The position numbers and the translations under genes are program-made. Below, in pieces: positions 1,659 to 23,444 of a DNA stretch of 30,377 bases. Under the pieces are notes generated by a model. The model searched no databases and was not told where the DNA came from. It saw only the letters and a program-made list of their open reading frames with translations. The DNA is taken from positions 1 to 30,377 of the IMG/VR virus record IMGVR_UViG_3300050125_000005; one strand, given 5' to 3'. Every line of letters begins with the position of its first letter. The stretch's first letter is position 1. This DNA is from a virus.

Positions 1659-3526
1659 ACGCCGAGGCCGTGCCGACGTCTGATGCCATAGCCGCCCGCG
1701 CCTACGTGGCTATGCGCCGCCCGCCGCGCGCACGGGAACACTTCGATGCACTGCTTGCGACTGAACAGAACGCACGTGCTGCGTTATGGCAAACTCTCAG
1801 CCGTGACGAACGCGACGCGGCCGCGGCTTACGCGTCTCGCCGGCTAGAACTGCGCGAAATATACGGCGACGCAGCGCCCACGATGCAGGCGCGCGAGGAT
1901 TGCCTCGCATGGCTGCGCCGGCCCGACGCTGCCACCGTCGCCGACAAAATCGCATGGGTGAAACGCTACTACGCGCGCGACGGCGATACGCTCGCCGATT
2001 TCATAAACGATTGGGGCTATACCATCGACCCGCGATTGATTAGCGAAGGTCGCAATCCCGTCGTCGCGTTCGCGCTGTTCCCTAGGCAGCGCGAGATGAT
2101 TCGATGGATGATTGGTTGCTGGATAGACAGCACGCCCGGCGTTGTCGTCAAGTCACGAGATGTGGGCGCGTCATGGGTCGCGATGGCGTTGCTAGCTACG
2201 TTATGTATATTCCGCAACGGGTTCGCGGCTGGCGTGGGCAGCGCTGTTGAAATCAAGATTGACCGCAGCGGCGACCCGGACTCGCTGTTCTACAAGCTAC
2301 GTTCGTTCCTCGAGCACCTACCGATAGAATTTAATGCAGGGTTCGATGTGGCGCACTGCTCAGCCGATAAACGCGTCACGTTTCCGCTGACCGGCTCGAG
2401 CATCACGGGCGAGGCCGGCGACCAGGCGGGACGCGGCGGCCGTAAAGCAATATTCATCGTGGACGAGAGCGCCCATTTTGAGCATCCTAATATCATCGAC
2501 AAAAACTTAAGCGCGAATACTAGATGCCGTATCGACATGTCCTCTGTGAACGGGAGCGCTAACTCGTTCTTTCGGCGCGCCCACAAACAACCGGCTATAC
2601 GCCGATTTGATTACACGTGGCGGGACGATCCGCGACGTGACGATGCATGGGCCGCAAAGACGCAAGAGGAATTGGACGAAGTCACGTGGAAACAGGAGTA
2701 CATGTGCGACTTTAAAGCGACGCTCGAGGGCGCCGTTATTCCGCGCGAATGGGCTGATGCCACGGTAGATATTGATAAGTTCCTAGGTATTGAGATGACT
2801 GGCGGCTTGCGTGCCGCGCTTGACATTGCCGATCGCGGGCTAGATTTGAATGCGTTCGCCGTGCTGAAAGGTCGGCGCGTAATCCACGCATCGCAGTGGA
2901 GCGGTAAAGGCAGCGATACAGGTTACAGCGTGCAGCGCGCAATGAAGCTCGCCGAGGAACACGGCTTAACGGCGTTCGATTATGACGCTGACGGTATGGG
3001 CGGCGCTGCCGTTCACAGTGACGCGCGGCTCATAAACGAGGCGCGGACCGAGGCGCAAGCGAAGCTCGTTAAACCGACGCCCGCGGAATATTTTACGCAC
3101 GGCACGATTGGCACGCATCCGTACCGCGGTTCCGAGGCAGTCGTCCGGCCCGAACAGATTGTCCCGGGCACGAAGCGAAAAGCCGTAGATTTATTCGCGA
3201 ACCGCAAAGCGCAATCCTGGTACGAAGCGCGGCTCGCCTGCTATAACGCGTGGCAAGCGCGCCGCGGCAAGCCGTACGTGCTCGAGCGCATACTATGCAT
3301 CCCGTCGGATTTGCCCCTGCGTGAATTGCTGTTAGAGCAGCTGTCGCAAGCTACGATTAAAGAAACTATGACGGGCAAGATTCAGATTGACAAGAACCCA
3401 GACGAGGAAGCTAGCCCCGACATGGCCGACGCCGTAGTGATGGCGCTCGCCCCGCGTAAATCGTCGCTGAATAACATGGGCGCGCTGTTGACTGCGGTCA
3501 GCGCGGCGAGTAATGTGAGGCGATGA
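1655..3526 (+). CDS. terminase large subunit
   Basis: A 623-residue packaging ATPase and nuclease. The ATPase domain has a Walker A-like loop VVVKSRDVGASW (163-174) and a Walker B IFIVDESA (266-273, with D270-E271). The C-terminal RNase H-like nuclease shows its acidic ligands in ALDIADRG (D390), DYDADGMG (442-449) and SPDMADA (D589/D592). Residues 1-140 are an alanine/arginine-rich N-terminal extension before the motor. The GTG start overlaps the preceding stop and has GGAG eight bases upstream. Length and motif order match a full-length large terminase with no sign of damage. It pumps DNA into the prohead through the portal encoded at 5213. Confidence 0.95.
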   Translation: MNAEAVPTSDAIAARAYVAMRRPPRAREHFDALLATEQNARAALWQTLSRDERDAAAAYASRRLELREIYGDAAPTMQAREDCLAWLRRPDAATVADKIAWVKRYYARDGDTLADFINDWGYTIDPRLISEGRNPVVAFALFPRQREMIRWMIGCWIDSTPGVVVKSRDVGASWVAMALLATLCIFRNGFAAGVGSAVEIKIDRSGDPDSLFYKLRSFLEHLPIEFNAGFDVAHCSADKRVTFPLTGSSITGEAGDQAGRGGRKAIFIVDESAHFEHPNIIDKNLSANTRCRIDMSSVNGSANSFFRRAHKQPAIRRFDYTWRDDPRRDDAWAAKTQEELDEVTWKQEYMCDFKATLEGAVIPREWADATVDIDKFLGIEMTGGLRAALDIADRGLDLNAFAVLKGRRVIHASQWSGKGSDTGYSVQRAMKLAEEHGLTAFDYDADGMGGAAVHSDARLINEARTEAQAKLVKPTPAEYFTHGTIGTHPYRGSEAVVRPEQIVPGTKRKAVDLFANRKAQSWYEARLACYNAWQARRGKPYVLERILCIPSDLPLRELLLEQLSQATIKETMTGKIQIDKNPDEEASPDMADAVVMALAPRKSSLNNMGALLTAVSAASNVRR

Positions 3527-3612
3527 TATATTTAATTATTGGAGGCGCCGTAGTTATCGTACTTATCGGCGTCGTTGTTTGGGCGTTCTTAACGAACGAT
3601 TACAGTAAATGA
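3523..3612 (+). CDS. single-span membrane microprotein (29 aa)
   Basis: Twenty-nine residues with one hydrophobic helix (residues 2-23, LIIGGAVVIVLIGVVVW) and a short polar tail ending NDYSK. It is coupled on both sides: ATGA with the large terminase stop and ATGA with the next gene. Its pattern IxG...IGxVVW...ND recurs in the 35-residue protein at 3949, suggesting the two are paralogues. No function can be assigned; holin-like or membrane-regulatory roles are possible but not shown. Confidence 0.6.
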   Translation: MIYLIIGGAVVIVLIGVVVWAFLTNDYSK

Positions 3613-5212: not shown

Positions 5213-7393
5213 ATGCTCACCACGTTTCGCCGATGGCTAGCGGCTAAGCTCGCCCCGAATCCCGGTCCGCCCGCCCCCGTGGCCGCAAAACCACGCAAAC
5301 AGCTTGCCATGCGTAAGCTGCTCGCCGAGGCGCTATCCCTGCCGGCGGTCGATAACCCCTATCAGCGAACGCGTGCGAGCGCTGAATACCGCGCGTTCCC
5401 CGAGCTCCCGCCGGGCGTGCTGCCCTCCCCGACCACGTTCGCCATGGACACCGTCTGCCCGGGCGAGGCGAAACGGCCAGCGCTCGCGCTCGATAATGCC
5501 GCTTGGGGTTTCGGCGGGGTCGGGCTGAACAGCGGGTATGGCGGGGGTCTATGGTTCCCGGGGTATCCGTATCTCGCCGAGCTAACCCAAATCAGCGAAT
5601 ACCGCGAACCGTGCGAGACGATCGCCACGGAAATGACGCGTAAATGGTTCGAACTGCAGTCGAAGTCCGGCGGCGACAAGTCCGAGGAAATCGCGCAAAT
5701 TATGGCGGAATGCGAGCGACTGAACGTACGGGCACACTTCTATCGCTGTTTTCTGCTCGACAGCGAATTCGGGCGCGGTCAGATATACCTGAATATCGCC
5801 GACGCGGACGAACAGAAACGACAGCTGCCGCTCGAGATTACCCCCGAGGGAATACCCGTCGGCAGCCTGAAATCGATTCAGTCAATTGAGCCGTACTGGT
5901 CCACGCCCTATTCGTGGAATTCACAGTACCCCGAGCGCGATGATTTCTACCGGCCTACGTCCTGGTACATCATGGGGCGCAAGACGCACGCTACGCGGCT
6001 GCTTACGTTCATAGGGCGCGAAGTCCCGGACTTGCTCAAGCCGGCATACAACTTTGGCGGCATCTCGCTAATCCAGCTTGGCGAAATGTCCGTTAATATG
6101 TGGCTACGCACGCGCAAGGCTGTCAACGACCTAATCAATAACTTCTCGGTTCCCGTGCTGGCGACGAATCTGAATGCCACATTGGAAGACGGTTCGCCCG
6201 AGCCCGGCGGGCTGCTCGCGCGACTGCAGGTATTTACGCTGACGCGCAATAACCAGGCAATCGCCGCGATTCAGAAGGACGACGAGGAAATCAGTTTCGC
6301 CGAAGCGACGCTAGCGGGCCTCGATAAGTTGCAGGCGCAGTCACAAGAGCACATGGCGGCCGTGTGGGGTATCCCCCTTGTGAAACTCACGGGTATCACG
6401 CCGAGCGGATTGAACGCCTCGAGCGAGGGAGAAATCACGGTATGGTACGACCGAATCGGCTCGATGCAAGTGAGACTCAGCGAGCCTAACCTAAAAATGC
6501 TGCTCAACGCCGTACAGTGCTCGCTGTTCGGCAAAATCGACGATGATCTAGTAATCCATTGGGTCACGCTGGACGAACCGACACAGAAGGAACTGAGCGA
6601 AATCCGTAAGTCTGACGCCGACATGGACGCGGGATATATCAATGCGAGCGTCATATCGCCTGACGAGGCGCGCGTGCGGCTGCAGTCCGACCCGGATAGC
6701 GGATACTCGAACCTGACCGGACCGGCACCTGAGCCTGAGCAAGAGTTAGATGAAAATGGCAATCCCGTGACGGGCATCACAGGAAATCCGCCTGAATCCG
6801 ACGATAATGCTGACGCCGACCAAGACGGCGGCGAGCTAGCAGGATTCAGTATGGACGCAGCGCAGTTTGAGGAAAACAAGCATCCGCGCGGGCAGGGCGG
6901 CCAGTTTGGCAGCGGCGGCCACGCGGCGACAGGCAATAACAAAGCTGACCGCGCCGAGACGCAAGTCACGGTCCATAAGGAGTATAAATTTGCCGGGCAG
7001 CCCGACGACGAAGGCCACAAAGACCCCGTCAGCAAGCTGGACCCGGCGAAGATTAAGGCCGCGCAGGCGCACAGCGAAAAAGTTGCAGGCATGATGGGGA
7101 AGGGCGCCGAGGGCGAGAAACCGACGCCTAAATCGCATCATGAACCGCAGAAGGCGAAAGCAGCTAGCGAGCAGTCCCCGCGTGCCGCGCAGGGCGGCGT
7201 ATCTAAAGCGCCGTTCGTCAACCAGTTCATGAGCGGCCACAAAAACCGCGAGGACGACATGAATCGATTGTCCGCGCTGCCTGTCGAAAAGCTACAAAAA
7301 GCGCTCCAATTGCTTACCGCGAATAAGGTAAACGACGAGGACGCGAAGTACATGAAAGAACTAATCCGCGACCTTTTGAAGGCTAGCAAATGA
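5213..7393 (+). CDS. portal protein, DUF1073 type, with long C-terminal extension
   Basis: About 726 residues from ATG 5213; the frame is open to a TTG at 5069 but the extra N-terminus is low-quality and overlaps the regulatory region. The portal is the dodecameric ring at one capsid vertex through which the terminase drives DNA. Family signature: an N-terminal segment with PGYPYLAELTQISEYR, and near residues 395-415 the strongly conserved GITPSGLNASSEGE. Portals of this type usually end around 450-500 residues. Here a further ~200 follow, with an acidic linker, the motif HPRGQGGQFGSGG near 557, and lysine- and alanine-rich helices to the end. The HPR-GQF-type motif is seen in phage portal/MuF/protease proteins, so the tail probably serves in prohead assembly. 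Confidence 0.88.
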   Translation: MLTTFRRWLAAKLAPNPGPPAPVAAKPRKQLAMRKLLAEALSLPAVDNPYQRTRASAEYRAFPELPPGVLPSPTTFAMDTVCPGEAKRPALALDNAAWGFGGVGLNSGYGGGLWFPGYPYLAELTQISEYREPCETIATEMTRKWFELQSKSGGDKSEEIAQIMAECERLNVRAHFYRCFLLDSEFGRGQIYLNIADADEQKRQLPLEITPEGIPVGSLKSIQSIEPYWSTPYSWNSQYPERDDFYRPTSWYIMGRKTHATRLLTFIGREVPDLLKPAYNFGGISLIQLGEMSVNMWLRTRKAVNDLINNFSVPVLATNLNATLEDGSPEPGGLLARLQVFTLTRNNQAIAAIQKDDEEISFAEATLAGLDKLQAQSQEHMAAVWGIPLVKLTGITPSGLNASSEGEITVWYDRIGSMQVRLSEPNLKMLLNAVQCSLFGKIDDDLVIHWVTLDEPTQKELSEIRKSDADMDAGYINASVISPDEARVRLQSDPDSGYSNLTGPAPEPEQELDENGNPVTGITGNPPESDDNADADQDGGELAGFSMDAAQFEENKHPRGQGGQFGSGGHAATGNNKADRAETQVTVHKEYKFAGQPDDEGHKDPVSKLDPAKIKAAQAHSEKVAGMMGKGAEGEKPTPKSHHEPQKAKAASEQSPRAAQGGVSKAPFVNQFMSGHKNREDDMNRLSALPVEKLQKALQLLTANKVNDEDAKYMKELIRDLLKASK

Positions 7394-9209: not shown

Positions 9210-9595
9210 AATTAACTCTACCGACCGATAGCAACGACCGTAAAGACGTTCCGCTGCATAGCGGCTGCTACGCTTACTTTCCGGCGGCGCTCGCGGGCGT
9301 CGCGTGCCATTCAAAGCGCGGCAATGACAAGTACAATCCGGGCGAGCCGCTGCACCACGCGCGCGGTAAATCGATGGACCACGCGGACTGTATCGCGCGC
9401 CACAACATGGATATTGCTGACACGCTTGCAGCGCTAGACCGCGCCAAGACACCGTACCCGCCGTTACGGATTGAGGAATTGCTCGCCGAGGCTGACGCGC
9501 TGTGCTGGCGCTCGCTCGCGCTGTCGCAAGAAATTTACGAACGATTCGGAGGGGCGCCGCTCGCGCCCGCTGCCCGTGCCGCTCCTACGCGCTGA
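9206..9595 (+). CDS. dATP/dGTP diphosphohydrolase-like protein
   Basis: 129 residues. Residues 10-100 match by eye the phage family annotated as dATP/dGTP diphosphohydrolase domain: RKDVPLHSGCYAYFPAALA, then VACHSKRGNDKYNPGEPLHH, ARGKSMDHADCIARHNMD, and a last helix ending RSLALSQEIYERFG. Proteins of this kind hydrolyse purine dNTPs and are known from phages with altered nucleotide pools such as those replacing adenine with 2-aminoadenine. No purZ- or DatZ-like partner is visible in this window, so pool sanitation is the conservative reading. The C-terminal 12 residues are Ala/Pro-rich and overlap the MuF start. Confidence 0.7.
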   Translation: MKLTLPTDSNDRKDVPLHSGCYAYFPAALAGVACHSKRGNDKYNPGEPLHHARGKSMDHADCIARHNMDIADTLAALDRAKTPYPPLRIEELLAEADALCWRSLALSQEIYERFGGAPLAPAARAAPTR

Positions 9596-10478
9596 CCCGC
9601 CCGAGGGTTCGCGCAAGCCCGTAACGGTTCGCGCGATACATCCGAGCGCCGCGGTCCATGATTGGTATTACGCGGAGTTATACGCGCACGTCGCGCAGAT
9701 GCACGAGGAACTCGTACGCGGCGTGCTGTCGGTCTATGGCGCGCTCGAGCCGCAAGAGTTCGCCGTGGACGCACCCACGCGTAACCCGTCGCTCCTACTG
9801 CGCGCCGCGCTGCGAAAATGGGGCGGGCTGTGGGTGTCGAAATTCGACAAACTGAGTCTAGACCTAGGTAAGCGGTTCGCTAAAAAGTCATTCGGTATCA
9901 CGCAAACGCAGATGCGTGCCGCGTTCAAGGACGCCGGGTTCACTGTGAAATTCCAGCCGACGCCAGCCACGGCCGCCGCGTTTCAAGCCACGGTCGCTGA
10001 ACAGGTAAACCTTATCAAAAGCATTCCGGCTGAATACCTAAAGGCTGTCGAAACCAAGGTTTGGAATTCGGTAATGCACGGGCAGGACATGCACGCGCTA
10101 TCGCGAGATTTGCGTGAGACGTACGGCATTACCCGTGACCGTGCCGCGCTGATTGCCCGCGACCAGACGAACAAAGCGAAAGCCACGATTGAGCGCGCGC
10201 GCCGGCAGGAACTCGGGATTACTCACGCGATTTGGCAGCACAGCGCGGGCGGCAAGACGCCGCGCGCGACGCACGTCGCTATGAGCGGCAAAGCGTATTT
10301 AATCGCGCAGGGGTCGTGGGATAGCGCGGAGGGCGCGTACGTGTTGCCTGGTCAGCTGATAAATTGCCGCTGCAGTTCTAAGGCGATCATTCCGGCATTT
10401 GAAACGATTGAGCAAGCTACTGCAAAATCCCCGCGGAACACTCCGCTACTAAACGCGGCCCGTAATCGTGCCCGCTAA
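9576..10478 (+). CDS. MuF-like minor head protein (head morphogenesis)
   Basis: About 300 residues. The C-terminal half has the MuF/SPP1 gp7 signature: IARDQTNKAKATIERARRQE, a Trp near W-Q-H-S, R-x-x-H (RATHVAMSG), an acidic turn, and LPGQLINCRC near residue 265. Such proteins enter the prohead with the portal and act early in ejection or head maturation. The start is uncertain: GTG 9576 is the first plausible codon after the overlap with the preceding gene, with GGAGG far upstream at 9547. The last ~31 residues (AIIPAFETIEQ...) are duplicated, in different codons, beyond the downstream nuclease gene; the stop overlaps that gene's GTG. Confidence 0.88.
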   Translation: MPLLRADPPEGSRKPVTVRAIHPSAAVHDWYYAELYAHVAQMHEELVRGVLSVYGALEPQEFAVDAPTRNPSLLLRAALRKWGGLWVSKFDKLSLDLGKRFAKKSFGITQTQMRAAFKDAGFTVKFQPTPATAAAFQATVAEQVNLIKSIPAEYLKAVETKVWNSVMHGQDMHALSRDLRETYGITRDRAALIARDQTNKAKATIERARRQELGITHAIWQHSAGGKTPRATHVAMSGKAYLIAQGSWDSAEGAYVLPGQLINCRCSSKAIIPAFETIEQATAKSPRNTPLLNAARNRAR

Positions 10479-10920
10479 AACCCCGCCCGCGCGCCGTGCC
10501 GCGGTTGACAGGTTCAAAGCTAAATACCCTGAACGCGTCGCTGCGTCCCAAAAGAAAAGCCGTGCCGCGTGGAAATTACGTGACCCGGCCGGGTACGCGC
10601 GGTACCGCAAGGAAATGGACTTAAAGCGCAAAGGGCTGACCGTTGAGCAGTTCGACGCGATCATAGCCACGCAGGGCGGACGTTGCGCCATATGTAGCGA
10701 CCTATTCACCGACAGCGGTAAGGGCGTCCCGCACATCGACCACGACCACGAATGTTGTCCGGTCAATCGGGCATGCGAGAAATGTTTGCGCGGGCTGCTT
10801 TGCCATCACTGCAACATGGGGTTAGGCCGTTTTCGTGACAACCCCGTACTGTTGCGAGGCGCCGCGTTTTACCTTCTGAACCCGCCTCCGCACGTCGCGC
10901 GCCGTGATTCCAGCGTTTGA
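10468..10920 (+). CDS. endonuclease VII-like homing endonuclease
   Basis: 150 residues with the recombination endonuclease VII zinc/HNH fold: C73-x2-C76, the catalytic HIDHDH (89-94), a second cysteine pair in C112-x2-C115 preceded by RGLLC, and NxGLGRFRDNP. Free-standing proteins of this type are frequent homing nucleases in phages. The N-terminal 55 residues are basic and helical, likely DNA binding. Its GTG start lies within the last codons of the MuF gene and its stop lies inside a second, out-of-frame copy of the MuF C-terminus. That placement shows the gene was inserted into the MuF 3' end. Confidence 0.88.
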   Translation: MPAKTPPARRAAVDRFKAKYPERVAASQKKSRAAWKLRDPAGYARYRKEMDLKRKGLTVEQFDAIIATQGGRCAICSDLFTDSGKGVPHIDHDHECCPVNRACEKCLRGLLCHHCNMGLGRFRDNPVLLRGAAFYLLNPPPHVARRDSSV

Positions 10921-10996
10921 GACAATCGAACAGGCGCGGGCGAAATCGCCGCGCAATACTGAGTATTTAAACCAATCTAGGAGTAGAGCGAAATGA
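10898..10996 (+). pseudogene. displaced remnant of the MuF C-terminus
   Basis: Read in the frame ending at TGA 10994-10996 this stretch gives RAVIPAFETIEQ followed by A-R-AKSPRNT and ...SRSRAK. It aligns without gaps to the final 31 residues of MuF, 23 identical, yet 17 of those 23 residues use a different codon. There is no start codon with an RBS and no full gene. The stop overlaps the ATG of a following 14-codon ORF as ATGA, the coupling style of native genes here, so this is probably the original MuF end. Confidence 0.8.
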
Positions 10997-11037
10997 ACGA
11001 ACAGACGTATGATGAATTGTTGCGCCAGCAGGCATAA
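10993..11037 (+). CDS. 14-aa peptide ORF, possible truncated gene
   Basis: ATG overlaps the stop of the MuF remnant (ATGA) and the frame gives MNEQTYDELLRQQA then TAA. Too short to support as a functional gene. It may be the start of a gene truncated by the nuclease insertion or a leftover coupled start. Noted because it marks the ancestral gene boundary. Confidence 0.2.
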   Translation: MNEQTYDELLRQQA

Positions 11038-11062
11038 AGGTGTACTGTCTGTGAGGTAAACC

Positions 11063-11079
11063 CCTACCAGGGAGGTAGG
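11063..11079 (+). promoter_or_regulatory. hairpin overlapping the Shine-Dalgarno of the next gene
   Basis: CCTACC (11063-11068), loop aggga, GGTAGG (11074-11079): a perfect 6-bp stem. The Shine-Dalgarno GGAGG (11071-11075), nine bases before the GTG at 11085, lies half in the loop and half in the stem, so folding could limit initiation. Confidence 0.4.
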
Positions 11080-11084
11080 CCCTC

Positions 11085-11462
11085 GTGGCTAGCTCTATTA
11101 GTCTAGTAACCTCGTTAACGTCCCGCAACTTCGCGCGGTCCGGCCCGACTATCGGTTTCCAGACGTCGACGGCATCTGTACGTGCGTTGCTCCCTGTCGC
11201 CACTATCCCGTGGCTATTCACGACACAGCTTCGTATCATTAATTTCTCGGACGAATTCGCCTACATCGAATTCGGCGACGCATCCGTTGTCGCTACGCCA
11301 TGGACCGGCCCGCCTCCGCTGACGTGCAGTTACCCAATGCTGCCTAACTCAGTGACTGTCGTGAACGCTCCCGTTAGCACCAGCCTGTATATCGCGTGCG
11401 TGCTGTGGCAAGGGAACGGCGGCCTGTATGTGACGCCGGGGCTTGGCGATTTGATGGGATAG
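11085..11462 (+). CDS. hypothetical virion-type protein (125 aa)
   Basis: GTG start with GGAGG at nine bases. A soluble, beta-rich protein: ASSISLVTSLTSRNF, then strands such as QLRIINFSDEFAYIEFGD and SLYIACVLWQGNGGLYVTPG near the end. Ser/Thr- and aromatic-rich strands separated by Pro/Gly turns look like a small head or head-surface protein. It lies between MuF and the prohead protease, where phages often code small capsid accessories. I do not recognise the family. Confidence 0.65.
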   Translation: MASSISLVTSLTSRNFARSGPTIGFQTSTASVRALLPVATIPWLFTTQLRIINFSDEFAYIEFGDASVVATPWTGPPPLTCSYPMLPNSVTVVNAPVSTSLYIACVLWQGNGGLYVTPGLGDLMG

Positions 11463-11480
11463 GGTCGGTTCGGGCATAAT
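11451..11480 (+). promoter_or_regulatory. candidate promoter for the protease gene, possibly leaderless
   Basis: TTGATG (11451-11456), 18 bp, CATAAT (11475-11480) match four and five of six consensus bases. Only six bases separate the -10 from the ATG at 11487, which would place transcription start on or next to the start codon. No Shine-Dalgarno is present, consistent with a leaderless message. Confidence 0.4.
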
Positions 11481-11486
11481 CACGGG

Positions 11487-12224
11487 ATGCCCCTAGAATC
11501 TGGTAAATCAAAGTCCGCGTTTTCCCATAACGTAGCGGCTGAGAAAAACGCCGGCAAGCCGACCAAGCAAGCCGTTGCTATCGCGTATGCGAAGAAACGC
11601 GGCGACGCCGAGCTCGAGGCTGACGACGAGGACTGCGCGCTCGAGGCTGACGACGAAGACTGCTCGCTCGGGCCGGACGATCCGGTAGCCGCCAAGGATT
11701 TCGCGTTAGACCGCGCCATGCATCGTATGGATGTGGACGGCCATTTACATATCGAGGGCGCGAACATCTCGAAAGCGATGGTCTGCCCTTACCTCGGCTC
11801 TGAAATACCGAACTCGGCGGAATTACGGCTCGACCCGTCAAAAATTTACATGCTTTACCGCGACGCCGCGGAGCTCGAGGCGGCGGCCGCCACGTACGAA
11901 AATAAGCCGCTCATGGCGGACCATATCGCCGTGAGCGCGGAGCAGCCGTACAAGCACTACGTCGCGGGCAGCGTGTCAAATATCCGGTTCCAATTCCCGT
12001 ATCTCAAAGCGGATATTGCCGTGTGGAACGCCGAGGATATACAGAAAATTCAGTCGGGAATACGCGAGGAAATATCTTGCGGGTACCGCTACCGCGCGGA
12101 CATGTCGCCAGGAGAATTCGAGGGGCAAAAATACGACGGCGTCATGCGTGAACTTGCGTGCAATCACATAGCGCTAGTTGAGGCGGGTCGCTGCGGCTCG
12201 GACGTGACGGCGGCGGCTACATGA
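11487..12224 (+). CDS. prohead protease, DUF2213 type
   Basis: 245 residues. After a basic N-terminal motif AFSHNVAAEKNAGKPTKQAVA (the K-AFS..GKP.KQAVAIAY type of phage proteins), the protease domain runs from about 75: DGHLHIEGANISKAMVCPYLG, ENKPLMADHIAVSA, VAGSVSN, then SCGYRYRADMSPGEFEG and CNHIALVEAGR. The family processes the scaffold and head proteins during capsid maturation; the conserved His in NHIALVE is a likely active-site residue. In related phages this domain is usually followed in the same polypeptide by a scaffold segment; here it stops and the scaffold is a separate gene 83 bp downstream. Residues 43-60 are a 9-residue tandem repeat. Confidence 0.85.
   Translation: MPLESGKSKSAFSHNVAAEKNAGKPTKQAVAIAYAKKRGDAELEADDEDCALEADDEDCSLGPDDPVAAKDFALDRAMHRMDVDGHLHIEGANISKAMVCPYLGSEIPNSAELRLDPSKIYMLYRDAAELEAAAATYENKPLMADHIAVSAEQPYKHYVAGSVSNIRFQFPYLKADIAVWNAEDIQKIQSGIREEISCGYRYRADMSPGEFEGQKYDGVMRELACNHIALVEAGRCGSDVTAAAT
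11613..11666 (+). repeat. 27-bp tandem duplication in the protease gene
   Basis: Two in-frame copies (11613-11639 and 11640-11666) encode LEADDEDC plus Ala or Ser. They differ at two bases only, so the duplication is recent relative to the rest. It lengthens an acidic, Cys-containing linker between the basic N-terminus and the protease domain. Confidence 0.85.
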
Positions 12225-20765: not shown

Positions 20766-21212
20766 ATGCGTCGCACTGAAAAGCTGACGATACCGGGCGT
20801 GCGCTCGGAAGCCCACGGCGAACGGGATAACGGCAAAACTTTCATCTTGACGGAAATGGACGCATACCGCGGGCAGGACTGGGCCCTGCGGGCGCTGCTC
20901 GCGCTCGCCGCCAGCGGCGCCACGCTGCCCGATGGCGCTATGACGGGCGGATGGGCGGGGTTAGCCGGGTTCGGCGTTACAGCCCTCCTGCGAGCTCCGT
21001 ATGCGGAGTTACGACCGCTCCTAGACGAGATGCTTGACCAGGCGAAGTACGAACACAAGCCGGGTCAGCCGCCGCAAGGGCTACGCCCGGATGCCGCCGG
21101 TAATTGCCCCGTACAGGAAATCAAGACGTTCCTGACAATCCAAGTTGCGCTGTTCAAGCTCCACACGGGTTTTTCTCCGGCCGACGCGCCCCCGAATACG
21201 GAGCAGCCGTAG
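20766..21212 (+). CDS. tail assembly chaperone, short (zero-frame) form
   Basis: 148 residues. N-terminal strands (RRTEKLTIPGV...KTFILTEM) followed by helices (YRGQDWALRALLALAA; YAELRPLLDEMLDQ). Located between tube and tape measure, where phages encode the G-type chaperone that coats the tape measure. GGAG seven bases before the ATG. Near the 3' end (21167-21173) is a slippery heptamer; a -1 shift joins it to the frame that continues to 21418, giving a longer GT-type form. Confidence 0.78.
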   Translation: MRRTEKLTIPGVRSEAHGERDNGKTFILTEMDAYRGQDWALRALLALAASGATLPDGAMTGGWAGLAGFGVTALLRAPYAELRPLLDEMLDQAKYEHKPGQPPQGLRPDAAGNCPVQEIKTFLTIQVALFKLHTGFSPADAPPNTEQP

Positions 21213-21418
21213 CCGCGCGAGCGGGCGGACGCGGCGCGAGCGGCCTGATTGACTACGTGAATGTCCCACCCTTTATAGGCCGCGTCGTCAGCAGCGGTCT
21301 AGCCACGCTGGCGGAATTGCAGTCGGTCTACGGCGTGCGCGATTTATTCAATTTGATTGAGATTATTGGCGTTGACTCTTATAATAGGCGGAATGGGACG
21401 ACGGAAAAAATACGCTAG
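20766..21418 (+). CDS. tail assembly chaperone, -1 frameshift long form (GT-like)
   Basis: If ribosomes slip at 21167-21173 the first 136 residues continue for 81 more in the -1 frame to TAG 21416-21418: FSGRRAPEYGAAVAARAG...GLIDYVNVPP...GLATLAELQSVYGVRDLFNLIEIIGVDSYNRR. The part GLATLAEL...Y..RDLF.LIEI is the conserved C-terminal block of tail chaperone extensions and has no good start codon of its own. The long form links the chaperone-coated tape measure to tube subunits and is usually a few percent of the product. The last ~8 codons overlap the HNH gene. Confidence 0.75.
21167..21173 (+). promoter_or_regulatory. -1 ribosomal frameshift site GGGTTTT
   Basis: Zero frame reads ACG GGT TTT, so the heptamer is G-GGT-TTT, exactly X-XXY-YYZ. 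A five-pair stem CTCCG (21175-21179) with CGGAG (21199-21203) lies only one base downstream, closer than usual stimulators. Confidence 0.75.
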
Positions 21419-21857
21419 TGAAGAAGATCGCCTGTCGGCCCGTCGCGCATGTTCTGGGGCTAGTAATAAACGGCACGAAGATAGAGTTAAGGCATACGCT
21501 CGAGAATATAAACAACGGCCTGAAGTGAAAGCCCGAGAATCCGAGCGAGCCAATGCTCGATATCACGCCGAACCTAAGCGCAAATATACCGCCAACCGTA
21601 AATGGCGAATTAAAAACCCTGGCGGGCACATACTAGGGCGCGCTGTGCCGCGATGGGCGGACGCTAACACCATAGCCGAGCTATATAAAGCGCGGGATGC
21701 CGCATGTGATTTATTCGGCGTCCCAATAGAAGTTGACCATATCGTGCCGTTGCGTTCTAATAAGGTCTGCGGGTTGCATTGCGAAGGCAATTTGCAATTG
21801 CTGCCGGCCGTGGTTAACGCCGCCAAATCTAATCGGAAATGGCCCGATATGTGGTGA
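21393..21857 (+). CDS. HNH homing endonuclease
   Basis: 154 residues. N-terminal basic, repetitive DNA-binding segment (KAYAREYKQRPEVKARESERANARYHAEPKRKY) and a C-terminal HNH: V-D115-H116-IVPL, LHCEGNLQLLP with N133, and NAAKSN. Such HNH genes are mobile and typically cut intron-less or gene-lacking alleles of neighbouring phage. The ATG at 21393 with GGCGGA upstream is preferred to the earlier start at 21357 whose leader peptide overlaps the chaperone coding. It is inserted between the tail chaperone extension and the tape measure gene; the tape measure has no good RBS of its own, perhaps as a result. Confidence 0.88.
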   Translation: MGRRKKYASEEDRLSARRACSGASNKRHEDRVKAYAREYKQRPEVKARESERANARYHAEPKRKYTANRKWRIKNPGGHILGRAVPRWADANTIAELYKARDAACDLFGVPIEVDHIVPLRSNKVCGLHCEGNLQLLPAVVNAAKSNRKWPDMW

Positions 21858-21869
21858 GCAGTTAAAACC

Positions 21870-23444
21870 ATGGCAACGGTAATAGATAGCCTAGTAGTCC
21901 TACTCGGACTTGACGCATCCAATTACAAAAAAGGACGCGAAACTGCCGAGAAGGAAACCAAAGAAACCGCACGCGTTACGAAGTCCTCGGCCGATGACAT
22001 CACTAAATCGCTCGTCGAGGTCGGTAAGACTGTTGCCGGGCTGTTCCTTGGGTTTGAGACGGTCACGGGATTTGCAAAGTTTCTCGGCGGGCTGAACGCC
22101 AGCGAGGCGGCGCTAGGTCGCACCGCGCAACGCCTAGATATGGGCGTCCACGAACTGAACCGATGGGGACAGGCGGCGGCGCTGCTTGGCGGGTCGGCGG
22201 AAGGCACGCAGGCCGCGTTTGAAGTACTGACGGCGGGCGTCAATAGATTCCTGTCCGGGCAAGGCTCCAGCCCTATCCTAGATTTAATGCGGCAGGCGGG
22301 CGTCGCCACCGTGACCGCGGCCGGCAAACTCCGCAATCAAGGGGAAGTGTTCGAAGAATTCGCGCGCAAAACCGCCCATTGGACGGACTCAATGCGGGCG
22401 CAGCGGCTCAAGGACGCCGGCATCAATCAGGACGAAATCGCGTATCTTTTGCGCAGCAACGCAGAGCGCCAGGACGCGCTACGTATTGCCGAAAGCCACA
22501 ATAACGTCACGGACGAATCGGTAAAAAAAGCTCAGGAACTGCAAGAGTATTGGCGGGACATAGGGCAACGAATCGAGGCGGCCGGCCAGATAATTCTCGA
22601 GGCGATCACGCCGGCACTCGAAAGCGTGCTCAGCGTGTTCAGCGATATCAACGTGCAGGGCGATGAATTTCAAACCGGGCTCAAGCTCATTGGGTCGGCC
22701 GCGGTCGTTATCAAAAACCTTTTCGTCGGCATGGGTGATGCGATCGGCGGCGCAGCGGCGGCTATTGGCGCGGCGTTGCATGGCGATTTCAAAGGCGCCG
22801 CGGCCATCCTCAAGGACCAATCGGCGCGCAGCACGGAACGCAACGAAAAAGAGGCGCCTGACTTGCTCGACCTTTGGGAAACGAAAGACAACACAGCCGC
22901 GAAACAAGCGAACATCGTTGCACGCTCGGGCGAGAATGCCGGCGGCTACCAGCCGCCCCCCGGCAGCAAAGCCGCACGCTTCAATAATCCCGGGAACATC
23001 CTAGATAGACAGGGTAACGAGCGCCGCTACGCGAGTCCGGCCGAAGGGCAGGCGGCACTTGAGCGCGACTTAGCCATCAAGATGCGCCGCGGTCTGCGCA
23101 CCGTGGACGCGATCATCACGGCGTATGAGGGCGGCGACACCGTTCACAACAATATCCCGGCCTACATTGCGGATGTACGCAAACGTCTTGGCAAGAACGA
23201 ACTGACGCCCGATGATATCAAATCGCTCGCGCAGGCTATCGCGATTCACGAGTCAGGCCCGACTCCGGGCATTGCCGGCAAGGTAAGCGGCGCGTCGACG
23301 GGCGGAAATTGTTGTACGACGGTCACGATCGGCACGATTCAAGTTAACGCGCCGAACGCCGATCCGCGCGCCGTAGCCGACCACATCGCGGGCGCCATTC
23401 AGCGCAAGCAAGACGTGTCGCAGGCTATGCAGGGGCAGTCATGA
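21870..23444 (+). CDS. tape measure protein with lytic (muramidase-like) domain
   Basis: 524 residues. Begins MATVIDSLVVLLGLDASNYKKG, the classical tape measure opening, followed by long helical segments, and a hydrophobic Ala/Gly segment (AAVVIKNLFVGMGDAIGGAAAAIGAALHG, about 283-310). Residues ~367-466 hold ARFNNPGNI...GQAALERDLAIKMRRG...ITAYEGGDTVHNNIPAYIADVRKRLG, which I recognise from phage virion peptidoglycan-degrading domains. The short length predicts a short tail (of order 80 nm if the usual 0.15 nm per residue holds). C-terminal residues are the usual degraded tail-tip segment with a Cys pair GNCCTT. Confidence 0.82.
   Translation: MATVIDSLVVLLGLDASNYKKGRETAEKETKETARVTKSSADDITKSLVEVGKTVAGLFLGFETVTGFAKFLGGLNASEAALGRTAQRLDMGVHELNRWGQAAALLGGSAEGTQAAFEVLTAGVNRFLSGQGSSPILDLMRQAGVATVTAAGKLRNQGEVFEEFARKTAHWTDSMRAQRLKDAGINQDEIAYLLRSNAERQDALRIAESHNNVTDESVKKAQELQEYWRDIGQRIEAAGQIILEAITPALESVLSVFSDINVQGDEFQTGLKLIGSAAVVIKNLFVGMGDAIGGAAAAIGAALHGDFKGAAAILKDQSARSTERNEKEAPDLLDLWETKDNTAAKQANIVARSGENAGGYQPPPGSKAARFNNPGNILDRQGNERRYASPAEGQAALERDLAIKMRRGLRTVDAIITAYEGGDTVHNNIPAYIADVRKRLGKNELTPDDIKSLAQAIAIHESGPTPGIAGKVSGASTGGNCCTTVTIGTIQVNAPNADPRAVADHIAGAIQRKQDVSQAMQGQS

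Follow-up and report, generated by a model that had tools for sequence, protein, structure and literature searches.

Endonuclease VII-type nuclease inserted with a replacement C-terminus in a phage MuF-like gene: a probable end-replacing homing element with similar arrangements in other genes

Introduction

Homing genes that reside inside essential genes must avoid killing them, and splicing, by introns or inteins, is the textbook answer to this problem. A second answer, in which a substitute gene end is carried along with the nuclease, is to our knowledge known only from fungal mitochondria.

The mobile ORFs (mORFs) of these organelles, found in atp6 of Allomyces macrogynus and in atp6, atp9, cox2 and nad3 of Glomus sp., are the closest described systems; there, the displaced native end shares 91-98% nt identity with a close relative and the carried end 64-81% (PMC3630166). 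In phages, the seg and mob genes of T4 are free-standing homing endonucleases with intronless homing, which spread by double-strand-break repair with co-conversion (PMC2988022). Another group is formed by the DHHRN enzymes, in which a C-terminal Endonuclease VII (Endo VII) motif typifies the endonuclease clade including the homing enzyme F-CphI (PMC6083498).

Here we describe a locus in the window (the whole stretch of viral DNA analysed, 30,377 nucleotides), in which an Endo VII-type gene and a new C-terminus are inserted precisely after the codons for the NCRC motif of a MuF-like head gene, with the native MuF end displaced downstream.

Anatomy of the MuF locus

The locus consists of the following features, all on the + strand.

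9576..10478 (+), hybrid MuF-like head gene, GTG start at 9576 and TAA at 10476-10478 (PF04233, E 8.7e-13)
9576..10374 (+), native part of the MuF-like gene, through the first base past the NCRC codons; 761/798 nt identical to the relative L003
10375..10478 (+), inserted replacement C-terminus (cargo, copy 1), in frame with MuF, with the new stop TAA; absent from L003
10375..10892 (+), whole inserted unit of 518 bp, equivalently 10372-10889, with GCA at both junctions
10468..10920 (+), Endo VII-type (DHHRN) nuclease of 150 aa, GTG start, TGA at 10918-10920 (PF02945, E 2.7e-18)
10893..10996 (+), displaced native MuF C-terminus (copy 2), its TGA at 10994-10996 sharing bases with the ATG of the short ORF that follows
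10993..11037 (+), 14-codon ORF MNEQTYDELLRQQA, with an ATGA overlap with the native MuF stop

Joining the flanks at 10374/10893 gave an uninterrupted, in-frame MuF gene ending NCRCTSRAVIPAFETIEQARAKSPRNTEYLNQSRSRAK, identical to L003 at 854/906 nt. Because the joined flanks restore a MuF frame matching this relative, the insert can be defined as the 518 bp immediately past the NCRC codons, made up of the new MuF C-terminus and the nuclease; once 10375-10892 is taken out, MuF reads in frame through NCRC and on into TSRAVIPAFE, with no target base lost on insertion. Copy 2 is open from around 10892 to its TGA, in a frame that differs from that of the nuclease. The two C-termini align without gaps over 34 codons with 24 identical residues, 18 of which use different codons, and their DNA is identical at 62/108 nt (34 codons, the stop and one further codon). 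This alignment scores 123, compared to a maximum of 35-36 reached by shuffled ends in our duplicated-end screen, so that chance is excluded as the source of the similarity. The pair was also the top direct repeat of the window in a self-repeat search, in which the other listed direct repeats score at most 69.

L003 (IMGVR 3300037219_000018) lacks the nuclease and, along the 5,840 bp that lead up to the MuF end, is 97.4% identical to the window. Its single MuF end is identical to copy 2 at 92/108 nt versus 59/108 to copy 1, and the ATGA overlap with the next ORF is present as in the window, that ORF having 67 codons (5903-6106) in L003 versus 14 in the window. Since the only MuF end of this nuclease-free relative matches copy 2, the downstream copy is the native, ancestral end. 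The same MuF/nuclease arrangement occurs in L002 (IMGVR 3300047576_000014), whose insert is identical at 518/518 nt, so that the arrangement is not an assembly error of a single contig; the window and L002 represent one species, and the MuF unit is thus known as one distinct sequence only. The close relatives therefore display a presence/absence polymorphism at one MuF site (window and L002 with, L003 without), with a diverged carried end in frame with the host gene and, downstream, a displaced native end matching an element-free relative, as in a C-terminus-carrying mobile ORF.

A preliminary description of this DNA, made from the sequence alone, had given the nuclease the same coordinates, starting in the last MuF codons and ending in a second MuF C-terminus, and these hold. 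Its count of 23 identical residues among 31, 17 of the 23 with different codons, is the same comparison over a shorter stretch. The flank joining bore out its placement of the insertion just after the NCRC codons, and its proposal that the downstream copy is ancestral agrees with L003: in the alignment with a nuclease-free relative that it had named beforehand as a check, L003 carries one end and not both, namely the native downstream copy including the ATGA overlap.

Two side observations concern MuF itself. Differences between the window and L003 fall in two tight, mostly synonymous clusters (9993-10046 and 9765-9797 of the window) with the remainder nearly identical, as from short gene-conversion patches. 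In L015 (5001-6128), the MuF match is broken into two segments that overlap in the query (residues 2-75 and 64-301) and are separated by additional DNA, as if another insertion or an internal duplication had occurred within the gene.

The nuclease gene

The GTG start of the nuclease overlaps the last MuF codons by 11 nt in a frame different from that of MuF, and the nuclease is probably translated by coupling to MuF. No stop codon for it lies inside the insert; its final few codons are read, out of frame, from the displaced native MuF DNA. T4 endonuclease VII in the PDB matches the protein (E 9.3e-5). All residues that define the DHHRN family, with roles taken from PMC6083498, are kept: the catalytic D91, H92, H94, R108 and N116 and the zinc cysteines C73/C76 and C112/C115. 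The Endo VII domain occupies residues 55-137 of 150 and is thus C-terminal, placing the enzyme with the endonuclease clade and not with the resolvases. The insertion at a conserved motif is at most suggestive of sequence-specific cutting of element-free alleles.

A second nuclease-like ORF, HNH-like (VDHIVPL ... NLQLL), is present at 21393-21857 (+) of the window, directly before a gene at 21870 that is probably the tape measure. The ORF, open from 21357, has no Pfam match, no DNA match in the loci compared and no duplicated gene end beside it. Also ahead of this gene, a pair of ORFs that overlap in different frames (20766-21418, +) looks like tail assembly chaperones made by programmed frameshift.

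Origin of the carried MuF end

The preliminary description had further proposed a mobile unit carrying its own, synonymously diverged end of the target gene. A mobile-looking unit with its own MuF end, which keeps the host gene open, is indeed what the locus presents; the part of the proposal that was not borne out at this locus is a codon change beyond ordinary divergence. Codons differ at 18/24 (0.75) of the residues shared by copies 1 and 2, and among 152 MuF family pairs considered, those with 65-75% residue identity gave a changed-codon fraction of 0.63 +/- 0.10 with a maximum of 0.86. The observed value falls within this family range, and excess synonymous change was not demonstrated at MuF.

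The DNA of copy 1 is only 51-60% identical to most MuF ends of the family, as distant from them as from copy 2, and its third-position GC (0.47) compares to 0.72 in the MuF body and 0.56 in the native end. No source of the cargo was found among 43 MuF loci, and a degenerate-codon scan of IMG/VR returned only the L002 contig, with no donor phage whose own MuF has the copy 1 end. The cargo resembles the terminal part of a MuF gene from another, unsampled lineage. Such a xenologous end explains the divergence, and selection on codons is therefore not needed at MuF.

The same architecture in other genes

We looked for duplicated ends of neighbouring genes at 241 distinct Endo VII-like ORFs, drawn from IMG/VR, GTDB and phage records. 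Because the screen alone is not specific (400 control ORFs gave 21 hits at a margin of at least 4, the strongest recognised ones belonging to repetitive structural genes), acceptance of a case rested on its anatomy and, where possible, on relatives. A whole-locus self-repeat search was rejected as a screen, being noisy and dominated by paralogous structural genes. Judged in this way, five further genes show the architecture, built around different Endo VII genes and affecting sometimes the N-terminal and sometimes the C-terminal end of the invaded gene. The insertions coincide with or adjoin conserved motifs (NCRC, Walker A and polymerase Exo I) and always lie close to a gene end, so the cargo stays short.

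The C-terminal case is a PF09979 (DUF2213) gene in L004 and L030, which belong to the same phage family and both hold GPDVCVADS in the carried end. The native DUF2213 end forms the final residues of the L004 nuclease ORF, in frame, and the two end copies of L004 both align with one and the same 30-nt stretch of L012. L012 has an Endo VII gene of its own (5932-6600), situated between the MuF and DUF2213 genes and overlapping the DUF2213 start with its end, at which no duplicated end was recognised.

Mirror-image, N-terminal cases were found in the remaining genes. In L023 and L384, a family A DNA polymerase gene is interrupted inside the LDIETN (Exo I) codons or immediately past them. Where relatives retain the upstream gene (20 of them), nothing separates it from the polymerase start, which it adjoins or overlaps, and the polymerase start of L357 is nearly the same in DNA as the native remnant of L023. 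The L023 and L384 cargos have codons in common that differ from both native remnants, so the cargo travels with the nuclease. Two further cases, both with no empty-site relative, concern an amidase of an Actinomadura alba prophage (L239) and a gene of no known kind in a Nitrosomonas MAG (L229). The nuclease ORF of the latter (1596-2318) has the invaded gene's native N-terminus as its own in-frame beginning, and may thus use that gene's start and ribosome site.

The strongest case of natural recoding here is a terminase gene (PF04466) in L083 (2601-3360), cut at the Walker A codons. Its native start is kept upstream of the nuclease, and the terminase now begins with the carried N-terminus downstream of the nuclease. 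Between the carried and native N-termini, 30/31 residues are kept while 25/30 codons are changed (0.83), leaving 63/93 nt identical. Two relatives that have no nuclease, L148 and L149, agree with the displaced copy at 85-86/93 nt versus 59-61/93 for the new one. In the terminase family, 57 pairs with at least 90% residue identity gave changed-codon fractions of 0.17 +/- 0.14 with a maximum of 0.46, far below the 0.83 of L083, and pairs with a fraction of at least 0.8 have residue identities of at most 58%. The terminase cargo is thus truly recoded: ordinary divergence is insufficient, and what is needed is either selection that altered the DNA while preserving the protein, or an unusual history of codon shifts, the third-position GC being 0.45 versus 0.81.

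Several candidates were rejected on inspection: L349 (tandem nuclease paralogs), L306/L331 (two different genes with a brief chance similarity), L230 (a match probably due to a common zinc-finger segment), and L068 and L128 (weak). In L233 (Streptomyces sp. DH12, 2680-3600), similar DNA flanks the Endo VII gene only in frames with no obvious genes, perhaps from an antisense host gene; L236 likewise matches only in other frames. No duplicated end was recognisable in Crewmate, Kumotta, Shawty, Nitro, LazerLemon, PSTNGR1, Vetrix and Bradyrhizobium phage ppBeUSDA76-2. In Klebsiella phage RAD13 (L441, 1399-2050) and relatives, an Endo VII gene stands in place of gene 4.7, and about the first 60 codons of the adjacent DNA polymerase are swapped (72-75% nt identity), with a sharp return to 97-99% after the HN..KYD codons. 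RAD13 was rejected as an end-carrying case, as it is an allelic replacement with no clear remnant, that is, a replacement with co-conversion in the known intronless style.

Alternative explanations and proposed mechanism

We consider it quite probable that the MuF unit is an end-replacing homing element. A one-off illegitimate or mosaic recombination, in which a foreign MuF end and an adjacent nuclease were joined by short homology with the nuclease as a passive passenger and no design involved, appears improbable. Phages are indeed mosaic, the identity at the junctions amounts to just 3 bp (GCA), and the region just past MuF is variable: about 1.7 kb of L003 (5907-7595), including a 286-codon ORF resembling DNA adenine methylase, is missing from the window, and the MuF-end boundary seems to be an insertion hot spot. 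However, the insertion cost the target not a single base, the arrangement recurs at Endo VII genes in the five other genes and at either end, and the two phages with the polymerase element have their cargo in common.

It is very unlikely that the nuclease is a phage Holliday-junction resolvase or a restriction or defence enzyme, with the C-terminus swap as a recombination scar at a favoured insertion site. This family does include T4 endonuclease VII and Hpy99I, but the C-terminal position of the motif is that of the homing and endonuclease clade, the gene is missing from a relative as close as L003 (97% identical), and its family is found at many different genes, some of them with swapped ends.

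The two remaining explanations are scarcely credible. Duplication of the MuF end in cis, followed by drift and by insertion of the nuclease between the copies, would yield two alignable ends in tandem order, but a displaced copy still at 92/108 nt to L003 leaves no time for the upstream copy to drift to 59/108 beside a gene body at 761/798. If the insert were a degenerate group I intron or intein and copy 2 the true 3' exon, this would account for a precise insertion at a conserved motif beside an Endo VII-type nuclease, and introns of phage polymerase genes do contain such nucleases (PMC6083498), but no Rfam match of any kind was obtained at E up to 1 over 9500-11500 and hence no sign of an intron, no structured RNA or splicing domain was recognised, the upstream MuF already closes with a stop of its own, and the nuclease does not share the MuF frame.

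For the end-replacing homing element, the following route can be proposed. The nuclease probably cuts nuclease-free MuF at the conserved NCRC-coding DNA close to the 3' end, and repair of the break from an element-bearing phage would copy the unit into the cut. The MuF body would serve as the left homology arm, and the native MuF end with the downstream DNA as the right arm, which is why the native end would survive, displaced to the right of the nuclease. No splicing would be required, as the unit supplies its own diverged gene end, by which the hybrid MuF stays open, and presumably functional, and the target is split. The divergence of the cargo would limit recombination between the two copies and, presumably, re-cleavage. 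The unit would thus act like an intron that does without splicing by bringing its own distal exon.

Taking all loci together, we lean slightly towards a wider reading: that homing elements of a general, hitherto undescribed class are carried by tailed phages, enter essential genes close to one end or the other, and bring with them an N- or C-terminus to replace the one they displace. Escape from self-cleavage and self-recombination would then select for synonymous recoding, making such elements natural recoded-rescue gene drives. The phage units point to a carried substitute end as a second answer to host-gene damage, and the finding of both C- and N-terminal forms, spread over several phage genes, suggests that the design has been overlooked, because annotation displays merely a normal gene beside an endonuclease VII. 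End-replacing units would also explain some of the swapped ends in phage mosaics. As far as we know, the terminase case is a natural version of a recoded-rescue gene drive, and it provides a testable system for the evolution of resistance to self-cleavage.

Comparison with known systems

No phage precedent for end-carrying nuclease units was found in the open-access literature searched. The MuF unit works like the fungal mORFs, in which an endonuclease ORF near the 3' end of an essential gene is preceded by a foreign in-frame C-terminus and followed by the displaced native end (PMC3630166). It is not a member of that group: the mORFs encode LAGLIDADG or GIY-YIG enzymes in mitochondrial hosts, whereas the unit described here encodes an Endo VII (DHHRN) enzyme (PF02945, Endonuclease_7) on the contig of a tailed phage, and the mORF cases described in that account are C-terminal, whereas the phage units also occur in the N-terminal mirror form (PMC3630166).

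The T4 seg and mob enzymes resemble the MuF nuclease in lying beside the presumed target gene and in start codons that overlap the upstream gene, mobA likewise starting with GUG, and their mode of spread resembles that proposed for the MuF unit (PMC2988022). However, the T4-type insertions in coding regions (mobE/nrdA and mobA/gene 60) split genes whose parts reassemble, with no carried replacement end (PMC2988022). F-CphI of cyanophage S-PM2 has the same DHHRN catalytic motif, with its domain at the C-terminus, but is protected by a separate group I intron in collaborative homing, unlike the MuF nuclease, which together with the carried end interrupts its presumed target (PMC6083498). In design, the unit is similar to the HomeR home-and-rescue drive, in which an essential gene receives, within its 3' part, a nuclease together with a re-coded 3' end, and homology arms flank the cut; HomeR was engineered in Drosophila with Cas9, and the likeness is an analogy of design and no relationship (PMC7968924).

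Compared to these systems, the architecture itself is known from fungal mitochondria, and the new features are the phage hosts, the Endo VII enzyme, the N-terminal forms and one demonstrable case of recoding.
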